Shown: positions 12,667 to 51,644 of the stretch, piece after piece
Layout of the letters: every line of letters starts with the position of its first letter
Numbering within the stretch: the stretch's first letter is position 1
Source of the DNA: Roseibium marinum
GTDB taxonomy: Bacteria; Pseudomonadota; Alphaproteobacteria; Rhizobiales; Stappiaceae
Direction: 5' to 3'
Assembly (NCBI RefSeq): GCF_002906165.1
Contig: NZ_PPCN01000001.1
Location: forward strand, 1,426,001 to 1,490,000
DNA length: 64,000 bases
Translations under genes and position numbers: made by a program
The notes under the pieces: model-generated
Told to the model about the DNA's origin: nothing
Database searches by the model: none
Seen by the model: the letters and a program-made list of their open reading frames with translations, nothing else

Positions 12667-12734
12667 TGCTTTGAAGCGGAACAATGATCCGGCCGACGCC
12701 TCGGCGCCGGTTGATGAAATTGGAGCGAGAATGC

Positions 12735-13433
12735 ATGCCGAAGGTGCTCATCGTTGAAGACGAAGAACCGCTGAGCCTTCTTTTAAGATACAATCTGGAA
12801 GCGGAAGGGTACTCGGTTGAATCGTGTGTCCGCGGGGACGAAGCGGAAATCCGCTTGCGGGAAAGCCTTCCCGATCTCCTGCTTCTGGACTGGATGCTGC
12901 CGGGTCTGTCTGGGATTGAACTGTGCCGCCGTCTGCGCGCGCGTGAAGACACGGAACGCTTGCCGGTCATCATGCTCACCGCACGCGGCGAGGAAGCCGA
13001 ACGCATTCGCGGTCTGTCGACGGGGGCGGACGACTATGTCGTCAAGCCCTTCTCCGTGCCGGAACTGATGGCCCGCGTGCGGGCCATCCTGCGCCGGGCA
13101 AGTCCGGAAGTGGTGTCCTCGATGCTGCGCTCCGGAGATATCGAACTGGATCGGGAAACCCACCGCGTCCGCAGGAACGCGAAGGAGATCCATCTCGGGC
13201 CGACGGAGTTCCGCCTGCTGGAATTCCTGATGACGTCGCCGGGCCGGGTGTTCTCGCGCGAGCAGCTTCTGGACGGGGTCTGGGGGCACGATGTCTATGT
13301 CGACGAGCGCACGGTGGATGTCCATGTGGGCCGCCTGCGCAAGGCGCTCAACAAGGGCAAGGCCAAGGACCCCATCCGCACCGTTCGCGGCGCCGGATAC
13401 GCCTTCAACGATCAGTTCTCGATGGCGATCTGA
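12735..13433 (+). CDS. phoB: Phosphate response regulator PhoB
   Basis: I use the ATG at 12735, which gives MPKVLIVEDEEPLSLLLRYN and 232 residues, matching the family length of about 230. The frame opens 17 codons earlier without family similarity. The receiver domain has the acidic pocket (EDE at 8-10), the phospho-acceptor Asp52 in LLLLDWMLPG, and Lys in DDYVVKPF. The C-terminal winged helix has LGPTEFRLLEFLMTSPGRVF, DERTVDVHVGRLRKALN and IRTVRGAGYAF. It binds Pho boxes such as the one before pstS. It ends the phosphate cluster and is followed by a strong terminator. Confidence 0.94.
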   Translation: MPKVLIVEDEEPLSLLLRYNLEAEGYSVESCVRGDEAEIRLRESLPDLLLLDWMLPGLSGIELCRRLRAREDTERLPVIMLTARGEEAERIRGLSTGADDYVVKPFSVPELMARVRAILRRASPEVVSSMLRSGDIELDRETHRVRRNAKEIHLGPTEFRLLEFLMTSPGRVFSREQLLDGVWGHDVYVDERTVDVHVGRLRKALNKGKAKDPIRTVRGAGYAFNDQFSMAI

Positions 13434-13500
13434 ACCGGGGCGAGGCCTGCCGTTTCGGCGATCATGGAAATCCGGAGCGGCCTGCGTTTGTTGATCTTCA

Positions 13501-13540
13501 AAAAACACCCTGCGTTCAGCTGAACGCAGGGTGTTTTTCT
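13501..13540 (+). terminator. Strong Rho-independent terminator after phoB
   Basis: A perfect palindrome with 19-base arms occupies 13501-13538, with core ACACCCTGCGTTCAG and its complement. It is flanked by A5 and T5, so it can terminate in both directions. It lies 67 bases beyond the phoB stop. Confidence 0.9.
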
Positions 13541-13560
13541 GTTTTATCCGCGAATTGGCG

Positions 13561-13828
13561 TAATACCAACCTCAATAAATAGGAACCCATTTGATGGCCT
13601 TTTTCCTGTCTGCCGGCAAGGCGCGTTGCACAGAACGGCCTGCTTGGCCGTTCAAGCAGCGCAACGCTGTCCGGCGGGCTGGAAAAAGCCACCGAAGGCC
13701 GCGACTGGAACCTGTTCCGCTACGTCGCGCGTCTTGGCCGATGTCCCACATCGCCCTGCAACACGCTCCTCGCGGAACAGGCTCCAGTCGCGGTCAAATA
13801 GGTTCTTATTTATTGAGGTTGGTATAAG
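13561..13828 (+). repeat. Structured MITE-like element, copy 1
   Basis: This 268-base element lies between phoB and gcrA. It starts TAATACCAA and ends TTGGTATAAG. The terminal arms (about 32 bases, two or three mismatches) are inverted repeats. Inside are two hairpins: AACGGCC/GGCCGTT (13634-13652 region) nested within GCGTTGC/GCAACGC, and a second stem of about 20 bases built on CTGGAACCTGTTCCG and its near complement. Blocks GCCGGCAAGGCGC, GTCCGGCGGGC and CCACCGAAGGCCG are shared with the reversed copy at 50658-50889. It has no credible protein and no transposase. Its right end stops five bases short of the gcrA stop codon. Confidence 0.85.
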
Positions 13829-13833
13829 GCCGC

Positions 13834-14364
13834 TCAGCCTGCCTGCGCCACGACCTTGCGGCTGCGGCGGTCGGAGACCGGCTGATAGGCGATCTTGCAG
13901 TGATGCACGCAGTAAGGAACGTTCGGGTCCGATTGCCGGCCGCAGAAATAGAAGTCGTCGGTGGAGGGATCGCCGATCGGCCATTTGCAGGTGCGCTCGG
14001 TCAGGGTGAGGATCGTCGCGCGCTGGGAAATCGGCACCAGTTCGGCGATCGGCTCAACCTGCGGCCTGGCTTCGACGGCCGGCGCCGGCGTGTAATCGGC
14101 TTTCAGGGCGGTTGCCCCGATGGATTGCGGCTGTGAGGCCGGTCTTTTCGGCGCAGCACTGCCGGTAGCCGGATTGGGCCGTGCGCGGCGCGCCTTGGAA
14201 GCGGAGGACGTCGTCTTGGCTCGACCCGACAAGCCGAGACGGTGCACTTTGCCGATGACCGCGTTCCGGGTGACGCCACCCAGTTCGCCCGCAATCTGGC
14301 TCGCGCTCAAGCCTTCGCTCCAGAGTTTCTTGAGAAGCTCAACTCGTTCGTTCGTCCAACTCAT
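13834..14364 (-). CDS. gcrA: GcrA cell cycle regulator
   Basis: This 176-residue protein starts MSWTNERVELLKKLWSEGLS and continues ASQIAGELGGVTRNAVIGKV, the DNA-binding helix-turn-helix of GcrA. Its C-terminal half has the sigma70-contacting domain with CKWPIGDPSTDDFYFCGR and YCVHHCKIAYQP. GcrA is a sigma70-associated activator that reads GANTC sites methylated by CcrM in alphaproteobacteria. The linker between domains is Ala/Pro/Lys-rich, as usual. It is convergent with phoB and divergent from argD; near-matches to CtrA boxes lie upstream. Confidence 0.95.
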   Translation of the reverse strand: MSWTNERVELLKKLWSEGLSASQIAGELGGVTRNAVIGKVHRLGLSGRAKTTSSASKARRARPNPATGSAAPKRPASQPQSIGATALKADYTPAPAVEARPQVEPIAELVPISQRATILTLTERTCKWPIGDPSTDDFYFCGRQSDPNVPYCVHHCKIAYQPVSDRRSRKVVAQAG

Positions 14365-31256: not shown

Positions 31257-31266
31257 AGATGCACTT

Positions 31267-31321
31267 CGTGGTGATTTGGGCCGGCCGGCTTGCAGCCACG
31301 TTAAATAAGTTGCTAAATAGG
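31267..31321 (+). ncRNA. SAM-II riboswitch
   Basis: The sequence runs CGTGGTGATTTGG, GCCGGCCGGC, TTGCAGCCACGTTAAA and AAGTTGCTAAA. CGTGG pairs with CCACG to form P1, and the GTTGC/GCTAAA part forms the pseudoknot with the loop. This matches the established SAM-II (metA/metZ) consensus of alphaproteobacteria nearly base for base. It binds S-adenosylmethionine and shuts down methionine biosynthesis genes; metZ follows. Confidence 0.93.
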
Positions 31322-31331
31322 CCGGAGGTGC

Positions 31332-31361
31332 AAACCCCGGTCTTTTGGCTGGGGTTTTTTG
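31332..31361 (+). terminator. Intrinsic terminator between SAM-II aptamer and metZ
   Basis: AACCCCGG at 31333-31340 pairs with the CTGGGGTT part ending near 31356 and is followed by TTTTTT. It lies ten bases after the aptamer and 20 bases before the metZ start, so it is probably the expression platform or a premature stop modulated by SAM binding. Confidence 0.75.
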
Positions 31362-50657: not shown

Positions 50658-50889
50658 CTTATACCAAAGAGTGTTGATTATGACTCATCTGACCGATTTT
50701 GGACGCGCTTCGGCAAGACGTGCAACGCAGCCCGAAGGACGTCCAAAACCGGCCTTCGGTGGATCATCCCCGCCCGCCGGACGTCGTTGCACCGCTTGCC
50801 CGGTCAACCAGACCGCACTGCGCGATGCGCCTTGCCGGCATACGGGAATGGTTCATCAGATGGGTCATAATCAACACTCTTTGGTATTA
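50658..50889 (-). repeat. Structured MITE-like element, copy 2
   Basis: Read on the minus strand this 232-base element begins TAATACCAA and ends TTGGTATAAG, exactly like copy 1 at 13561-13828. Its arms (ATACCAAAGAGTGTTGAT and onwards, 32 bases, one or two mismatches) are different in sequence from copy 1 but equally self-complementary. Shared blocks are CCCAT-x-TGATG, GCCGGCAAGGCGC, GTCCGGCGGGC and CCACCGAAGGCCG. Two internal hairpins (CGGTC/GACCG and TTTTGGACG/CGTCCAAAA) sit in the same places as in copy 1. The first TAA of the element is the stop codon of the gene at 50887-51162. Confidence 0.85.
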
Positions 50890-51162
50890 CCGGCTCCGCC
50901 CCATGGACATGATCCGGATCACCAGCCATATCGGCACGACGACGATCGCACCGATAAGCAGATAGCCGCCGAGGCGTCCGATTGCATGGAAGCCCATGTT
51001 CCACAGCCGCTCGACGAATTCGACCGCCATGTTGACGAGGTCAAGAGGATCCAGGTTGAGGGCCGAAAGCACGATGCCGACCACGAACGAGAGGAACACG
51101 AGCCGCAACAGCACCTGCGCGGGCGAGCCTCCCAGAAAACGGCTCAAGCCGGTGTCGGACAT
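50887..51162 (-). CDS. Small DUF6460-like membrane protein
   Basis: The ATG at 51162 has AGGAGA at good spacing and gives 91 residues. It reads MSDTGLSRFLGGSPAQVLLR, with helices LVFLSFVVGIVLSALNL and GGYLLIGAIVVVPIWLVIR, linked by DPLDLVNMAVEFVERLWNMG. This fits the small two-helix DUF6460 family of Rhizobiales, of unknown role. Its TAA stop is supplied by the end of the structured repeat element, so the native C terminus may have been changed by insertion. Confidence 0.8.
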   Translation of the reverse strand: MSDTGLSRFLGGSPAQVLLRLVFLSFVVGIVLSALNLDPLDLVNMAVEFVERLWNMGFHAIGRLGGYLLIGAIVVVPIWLVIRIMSMGRSR

Positions 51163-51644
51163 GTCTTTCTCCTGATTGACGTTGATAGCGGATTTCTTGG
51201 CGAAAGTTAGGAACAAATCATTCCGATTACAATGCGCAAGCACGCAGCCTGTCTGAGGCGGTGAAACGGCGCCGAGAGGAAAATGGTGTATCGACAAATA
51301 TCCGGATTAATTACATGTGGTGGCGTAAATGGTAAAATTCTGTTCGTCTCAGGCCAAAGACGCAAGTGATCCTGTCAGCTAAGGTTATCGTCAGGAATGC
51401 TTACCCGGGCATTTGCGGTTACCCACAGTCGCTTTCGTCCGGAACTTCCTCGAGCTGCAGTGAAAGACAGACTTCGGATCAAATTCGAGAAGGATCCGGC
51501 CAAGAAAACTTTCACGCTGCAGAGTGGCCCCTGACACCAGGGAATAATCGGACGGTTTTTTCTTAAAAGCACGTCTGGAACCACTGTGTGTGCCGGACGA
51601 TCGAACAAAAGTCTCGATATCTGCCGGGTGAAGGAATTATCTCA
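51163..51644. other. Gene-free stretch with nested RNA-like secondary structure
   Basis: No convincing protein lies in this stretch. CTGCAGTGAAAG (51455-51466) pairs with CTTTCAC-g-CTGCAG (51509-51522), enclosing CGGATC (51475-51480) paired with GATCCG (51493-51498). A small CCCTG/CAGGG hairpin and TTTTTT (51556-51561) follow. Together with the orphan plus-strand terminator at 51645, this could be a small RNA gene read on the plus strand. There is no clear promoter, so this is only a candidate. Confidence 0.35.

Follow-up and report, generated by a model that had tools for sequence, protein, structure and literature searches.

A widespread family of miniature mobile elements that carries a conserved two-hairpin core on different inverted-repeat ends

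We analysed 64,000 nucleotides of the Roseibium marinum genome (contig NZ_PPCN01000001.1, positions 1,426,001 to 1,490,000; this whole stretch is called the window), in which a first-pass annotation had pointed out two copies of a structured repeat. Our main finding is that these copies belong to a family that is real, mobile and widespread. The best reading of the sequences is that the element behaves as a MITE that DDE transposases mobilise in trans, with a putative role of its interior in transposition or in transcripts. We think it reasonably probable that the element is non-autonomous and mobilised in trans, IS5-type transposases being the probable agents, and that selection acts on its hairpin core as a folded single strand. 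The two copies lie where they had been annotated (Table 1), they have the named blocks in common, and on alignment their first 9 and last 10 bases are the same; neither contains a transposase. The difference between their arms is also real and not a sequencing artefact, since each arm type is found again in further copies of the genome, copy 2 representing a second arm type with relatives of its own there.

Table 1. Features of the two copies, in positions of the window.
Feature	Position	Strand	Remarks
Copy 1, whole element TACC...GGTA, ATACC end class	13564..13824	+	261 bp
Copy 1, target-site duplication TAA, left	13561..13563	.	Empty sites in G012 and G011 have a single 3-bp unit, AAA
Copy 1, target-site duplication TAA, right	13825..13827	.	
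Copy 1, P1 left arm	13563..13594	+	32 bp, last duplication base included
Copy 1, P1 right arm	13794..13825	+	32 bp, first duplication base included
Copy 1, first hairpin, core GCCGGCAAGGCGC ... GCAACGCTGTCCGGCGGGC, sense on +	13595..13693	+	Core match
Copy 1, three-way junction sequence CCACCGAAGGCC	13689..13700	+	
Copy 1, second hairpin, same core family, diverged, sense on -	13697..13793	-	Core match, E 8.8e-13
Copy 2, whole element, ATACC end class, arm sequence unlike copy 1	50662..50886	-	225 bp
Copy 2, target-site duplication TAA, one side	50659..50661	.	
Copy 2, target-site duplication TAA, other side	50887..50889	.	Stop codon of ORF 50887-51297 (-), DUF6460
Copy 2, P1 left arm	50856..50887	-	
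Copy 2, P1 right arm	50661..50692	-	
Copy 2, hairpin with intact core	50762..50855	-	Core match
Copy 2, junction CCACCGAAGGCC	50751..50762	-	
Copy 2, second hairpin	50693..50754	+	About 35 bp shorter; core match

A typical element is about 261 bp long and consists of a 32-bp terminal inverted repeat (P1) and two hairpins that hold one core in opposite orientations, as the core matches in both window copies indicate. With the junction read as GGCCTTCGGTGG, the order is P1 arm (32), hairpin a (HPa), TTCGG, hairpin b (HPb) and P1 arm. The hairpins can be aligned after reversing one of them, with GGC-N-AGGC ... GCAACG-NN-GTCC as their pattern, and they are 91-102 nt long, 83 of the 86 hairpins taken from 43 elements falling at 95-99. 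In our proposal this would be a MITE-like non-autonomous element of fixed plan, each half of which reads an end and a sense hairpin on its own strand. The length difference between the window copies is due to the bases missing from the second hairpin of copy 2. Copies 1 and 2 are each flanked by TAA on both sides; because the middle base of these TNA flanks varies among copies and is mostly equal on the two sides, we take the flanks as target-site duplications and TACC...GGTA as the element proper.

Elements were collected as inverted-repeat stretches, of which 155 were found. The 24 without a junction match were left out, several of them clearly related and 262-328 bp long; among the excluded loci, L080, L081, L107, L108, L306, L308 and L311 are longer variants of 294-328 bp with similar ends that do not match GGCCTTCGGTGG. 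The remaining 131, a few of them spurious, have a most frequent length of 263 bp with one duplication base counted per side. Filters on length, junction and arms were passed by 108, and those below 85% ungapped identity make up a set of 77. Four further loci (L019, L217, L139 and L135) are short palindromes of P1 only, in which the interior is absent, and are possible excision or deletion products.

Both window copies fold far better than their shuffled sequences, with energies of -163.6 kcal/mol for copy 1 (z -15.0) and -136.3 kcal/mol for copy 2 (z -12.1), which none of 200 shuffles equalled in either case. The three-stem fold with covariation proposed by the annotation holds in the set of 77 diverse copies, where the stems are 85-93% Watson-Crick and most pairs are compensatory. 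Hairpin a reaches 84.6% Watson-Crick (slid 25-27%, partner-shuffled 57%) and hairpin b 86.9% (slid 20-32%, partner-shuffled 63%), and P1 reaches 92.5% (slid 23-27%, partner-shuffled 55%), in part by construction, elements having been kept if at least 23, then at least 25, of 32 arm positions paired; at least 27 are paired in 126 of the 131 elements. Compensatory pairs, counted where compensatory types have at least three sequences each, number 25 of 32 in P1, 32 of 38 in HPa and 27 of 38 in HPb. In the 86 hairpins, standard pairs fill 93.2% of cells (69.1% shuffled, 30-45% slid) and 515 cells hold double changes against 183 in shuffles, a value reached by 0 of 500; the contrast is weaker when pairs with at least one double change are counted, 20 against 17.5 (9 of 500 shuffles). 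These figures should not be read as probabilities, since the structure was derived from the same alignments and the shuffles leave relatedness in place. A first covariance model of the core, built from copies as the annotation had suggested (16 sequences), already had double changes in 13 of its 31 pairs.

The same annotation had argued that selection, and not only recent copying, lies behind the pairing. Diverged copies do keep their pairing, and recent copying is real as well: a BLAST search of the own genome with copy 1 returned six full-length copies, copy 1 included, at 98-100% identity on contigs C1, C3, C4 and C7, together with diverged partial matches at 72-79%.

What kind of constraint acts on the stems can be approached through their wobble pairs, the reasoning being that a strand-symmetric process leads to equal G·T and A·C departures. 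In P1 of the 77 elements the two are equal over all pairs (G·T:A·C 61:61), and they stand at 42:51 after filtering. On the unfiltered top strand the counts are 233:59 for HPa and 132:143 for HPb, 89 of the 132 coming from two poorly paired positions, 163-205 (T·G in 72/77, an internal loop in the hairpin alignment) and 139-230. For the filtered count we kept pairs with at least 60% Watson-Crick and neither wobble type above 15%, which gives 91:34 for HPa and 34:61 for HPb, or 61:34 on the core-sense strand of HPb; the 60% limit removes 163-205 and 139-230 and also three G·T-rich pairs of HPa, and the wobble count depends on the pairs kept. Per sequence, the filtered wobble stands at 45 to 10 for HPa and 34 to 19 for HPb. 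Over 22 pairs of the hairpin model the core-sense ratio is 153:20, and 58:15 without pairs where either type exceeds 15%; these sequences are related, so both the wobble and the covariation counts are of non-independent events. The strand-biased wobble suggests that each hairpin, on its own strand, is under selection in single-stranded form; P1 gives no such indication. To judge from sequence, P1 behaves like duplex transposon ends and the hairpins like a selected single-stranded motif, and strand-biased mutation could be an alternative source of the skew. Of the three stems put forward in the annotation, the two inner hairpins (153:20) bear the single-strand signal and the P1 arms (61:61) do not.

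A second force beside selection is suggested by comparing copies within one genome, since double changes occur between copies that are 92-100% identical, which points to templated correction from arm to arm. Six copies of the own genome (G000), 97.3-99.6% identical, include one pair changed from AT to CG. Among 11 copies of another genome (G017; 97.7-100% identical) the opposed P1 positions 13/251 are C·T (5), A·T (4), C·G (1) and A·G (1), as if the arms had been converted or the interior flipped between them. A third genome (G014) has three pairs changed on both sides among four distinct copies of at least 92.4% identity, in a comparison set that contained one locus twice; the within-genome comparison omitted L425 and L426 (G017) and L431 (G014), in which no ends were located. 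Given these early double changes and the equal wobble, duplex recognition and arm-to-arm correction explain P1 at least as well as an RNA fold, and the pairing of the 32-bp arms no longer serves as evidence for one. Arm-to-arm correction may help to keep P1 paired beyond about its outer 12-15 bp.

The same observations raise the alternative that these are plain MITEs with functionless hairpins, whose pairing comes from palindrome correction by template switching between the arms and whose core reflects shared ancestry. The double changes over short times within G000, G017 and G014 would agree with this, as would the absence of a strand bias in P1. However, correction should erase unpaired bases of the core loop, and A29, G31, C32, A75 and A76 of the internal loop are conserved in 75-84 of the 86 hairpins; the wobble bias also tracks the orientation of the core, and a length near 263 is kept across families. 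We consequently hold this explanation to be unlikely. Returning to a core selected as a folded single strand, the hairpins may act as a cis transposition signal extruded at the replication fork, or alternatively as RNA, in which case every transcript running into the element from one side or the other would meet them first. How the element spreads or is tolerated may depend on the fold.

Mobility of the ATACC class is shown by near-identical dispersed copies, target-site duplications and an empty site. Equal TNA is found on both sides of 24 of 37 elements of this class against 9.4 in shuffles. The AGAGC class sits in YT...AR, with T at -1 in 45 of 49 and A at +1 in 41 of 49; the shuffle test shows no duplication beyond these invariant flanks, because they hardly vary, and a duplication of TA is probable for this class. 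The flank test scored 86 of 117 elements, the other 31 being without the canonical 5-base end on both sides. As the annotation had proposed, empty sites were sought in relatives: when the flanks of copy 1 are joined, they have a contiguous 402-bp match in two of 45 genus genomes (G012 and G011), a partial one in 42 (the own occupied site being counted there) and none in one. The empty site reads TTGGCG-AAA-GGC, the occupied one TTGGCG-TAA[element]TAA-GGC. Around copy 1, a terminator-like palindrome (AAAAAACACCCTGCG...CGCAGGGTGTTTTT, about 13500-13541) lies between a PhoB-like gene (12684-13433, plus strand) and the element and is also present in the relatives with the empty site; a GcrA gene (13834-14364, minus strand) is on the far side.

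These insertion sites bear on a different kind of explanation, in which a folded single-stranded DNA is mobilised by an HUH or tyrosine-type enzyme in the manner of REP/RAYT or integron cassettes. A strand-polar core and a sense hairpin beside the 5' end of each strand would suit such an enzyme. Short fixed target-site duplications are typical of DDE transposition, and the short fixed TNA duplications with a matching empty site argue against the HUH or tyrosine-type explanation strongly enough that we regard it as very improbable.

Insertions often adjoin the 3' ends of genes. A crude ORF call for the 49 long-flanked elements placed 17 of them with a 3' end on each side, 23 with a 3' end on one side and a start on the other, and 6 with a start on each side; for 3, only one neighbour was called. 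At stop codons (frames of at least 100 codons) we find 14 of the 38 long-flank elements that have canonical ends, against 177 of 1968 control motif sites; copy 2 is inserted at the stop codon of a DUF6460 gene. Such insertion would render many copies harmless. A host-useful structured regulatory RNA (a 3' UTR element, processing site or terminator) that is repeated incidentally might show the same preference for 3' ends and stop codons, and also the wobble bias of the hairpins. Speaking against it are copy numbers that vary from 0 to at least 31 within the genus, the empty orthologous site and the duplications, the copies between two gene starts (6/49), a P1 without wobble bias, and an Rfam search at gathering score without a match to the elements, and we find it improbable. 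That search, made with the whole window and 14 loci outside the order, matched only tRNAs and a SAM-II riboswitch; in the E-value mode there were only weak sub-threshold matches below the gathering scores. The riboswitch (SAM_alpha) is at 31258-31337 of the window on the plus strand with 80.9 bits.

For an element moved in trans, a candidate partner is suggested by shared ends. The own genome has an IS5-family element of two frames (PF13340, PF01609, NF033580) with ends CTAG-nn-TCTGTGGACATTTA, and two elements of this genome, L083 and L327, which are both matched by core models, have ends CTAG-GG/GA-TCTGTGGACAAT(T/A)A (in full CTAG-GG/GA-TCTGTGGACAATAAGG and CTAG-GG-TCTGTGGACAATTAGG). Only about the outer 12-15 bp are common to the IS5-family element and these two, so a transposase would need only those. 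We propose that a trans-acting DDE transposase, most likely an IS5-family enzyme, would recognise about the outer 12-15 bp, with ends that differ between subclasses. IS1031-group elements duplicate TNA.

The corresponding searches for the ATACC ends were negative. The three PF01609 matches of the own genome lack ends like the window's two ATACC arm types, and none of the loci examined from a PF13340 search of 12 element-bearing genomes, four of which had no match to the profile, is an IS with ATACC ends. Single arms were looked for in 15 stretches of the own genome and found in nine, in remnants or beside ordinary genes and not in an IS; an arm pattern in eight genus genomes gave elements, solo palindromes and chance-like matches, and the 13 loci examined out of 30 again showed no IS. 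The core was not found inside an IS at 33 loci (30 of 55 PF13340 places and three of PF01609), where three core matches lie within elements or likely copies beside the IS. One IS5 element (L182, 809-2185, in G017) was considered as a partner and rejected: it has inserted into a copy, within the right arm, and is flanked by TA at each end.

The conserved core was used to search the genome and its relatives, as the annotation had recommended. In the own genome the first model has 25 matches at E<=0.1, two of them weak (E 0.008 and 0.017), and 23 at E<=0.001. With the own genome and relatives taken together, 32 of 61 genomes and 5 of 25 genera have matches at E<=0.001, and in the order 44 of 397 genomes and 28 of 141 sampled genera at E<=1e-4. 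Exact core matches in named genomes are those of Roseibium sediminicola, bacterium BMS3Bbin10 and an uncultured Afifella. Copy numbers reach at least 51 in the order, all such numbers being lower bounds from 67 candidates scored per genome (own genome and relatives) or 10 (order, class and phylum). A second model, built from the 86 hairpins, matched 44 of 385 genomes and 35 of 277 sampled genera of the class. In the phylum it matched 27 of 398 genomes at E<=1e-5: besides the own genome these are one from its order, 10 from its class and 15 that lie outside the class. The ends were examined for the best 27 loci of this phylum survey: 13 of the 15 best loci outside the class lie within inverted repeats 264-287 bp apart, the other two within repeats 103 and 235 bp apart. 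These folds have the hairpins within a closing stem, and the junction is CCC-GAAG-GGG or CCC-TTCG-GGG in 7 of 13, a similar CCC...GGG in 5 of 13 and absent in L397. By blastn, copy 1 is unmatched in plasmids and phages and the L167 element in plasmids; viral contigs have no match to one exact core pattern, and a scan of genome contigs with the copy-1 arm gave no match.

At least three kinds of ends are found on elements that carry the core. In the L015-L018 group the ends, CTAGAGCACTTTAAAAG, are quite unlike the others and the core is the same, with 44 bases between two conserved blocks as in other groups (43 in one copy). The interior is the most widely conserved part of the family, a near-constant-length, covarying and strand-polar two-hairpin module on different ends. 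A more far-reaching idea, which we offer tentatively and with less belief than in trans mobilisation with a selected core, is that a phylum-wide lineage keeps this single-stranded two-hairpin signal and exchanges or diverges its ends for different IS5-type transposases, so that the fold would be its heritable identity and active in transposition. Whether a folded single strand acts in DDE-type transposition or in making insertions harmless is now testable. A body of repeats that now go unannotated, several of which lie at contig ends, may also be explained by this family.

The annotation knew of no described family that fits exactly, and this agrees with our searches: there is no Rfam match at curated thresholds, and no description of this family was found in open-licence papers, a scope outside which most subscription papers fall. 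RIME and Bru-RS are alphaproteobacterial intergenic palindromes. CIR is another, with two arms joined by a linker; in the parts of the source available to us it is described with a GANTC motif at the loop and without a closing terminal stem, which sets it apart from our element (PMC2229807). By the part of its description consulted, the BRE of Bordetella is a 75-91 bp repeat that is often tandem (PMC3110155). The GTAG/CGTC REPs, of which the CGTC type is found mainly in alphaproteobacteria, are similar in being palindromes, often inverted dimers and some inside longer palindromes, but according to the portion of the report at hand they are 20-40 bp long with a tetranucleotide foot (PMC3733652), whereas our element has hairpins of about 97 nt with an internal-loop core, terminal inverted repeats and target-site duplications. 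Similar in some respects are QMITE1 and QMITE2 of Coxiella, folded MITEs often at the 3' ends of genes; the excerpt of their description that we could consult sets both apart, QMITE2 by duplications of 7-11 nt and a GTAG REP and QMITE1 by being reported as Coxiella-specific (PMC5896051). The IS427 group of the IS5 family, at 832-865 bp with short inverted repeats, has mostly 2-bp duplications in the section of the source seen, which fits the TA that is probable for the AGAGC class (PMC3281130). The ends of an IS5-family element recur in one subclass within the same genome. Our element, unlike the IS5 family, is without a transposase and has 32-bp paired ends.

Bacterial MITEs are usually viewed as internally deleted insertion sequences with arbitrary interiors. 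The miniature element family that the annotation had suggested is borne out by multiple copies, inverted-repeat ends, target-site duplications (ATACC class) and an empty site, the dispersed recent copies being too short for a transposase. Like bacterial MITEs as characterised in the passages available to us, the elements are short and non-coding, with inverted-repeat ends, short duplications, many copies and stable predicted folds (PMC10969869, PMC2229807), and the former source, as far as consulted, traces bacterial MITEs to IS. Unlike them, they have a conserved and covarying two-hairpin interior of near-constant length that is found on different ends and also outside the class.
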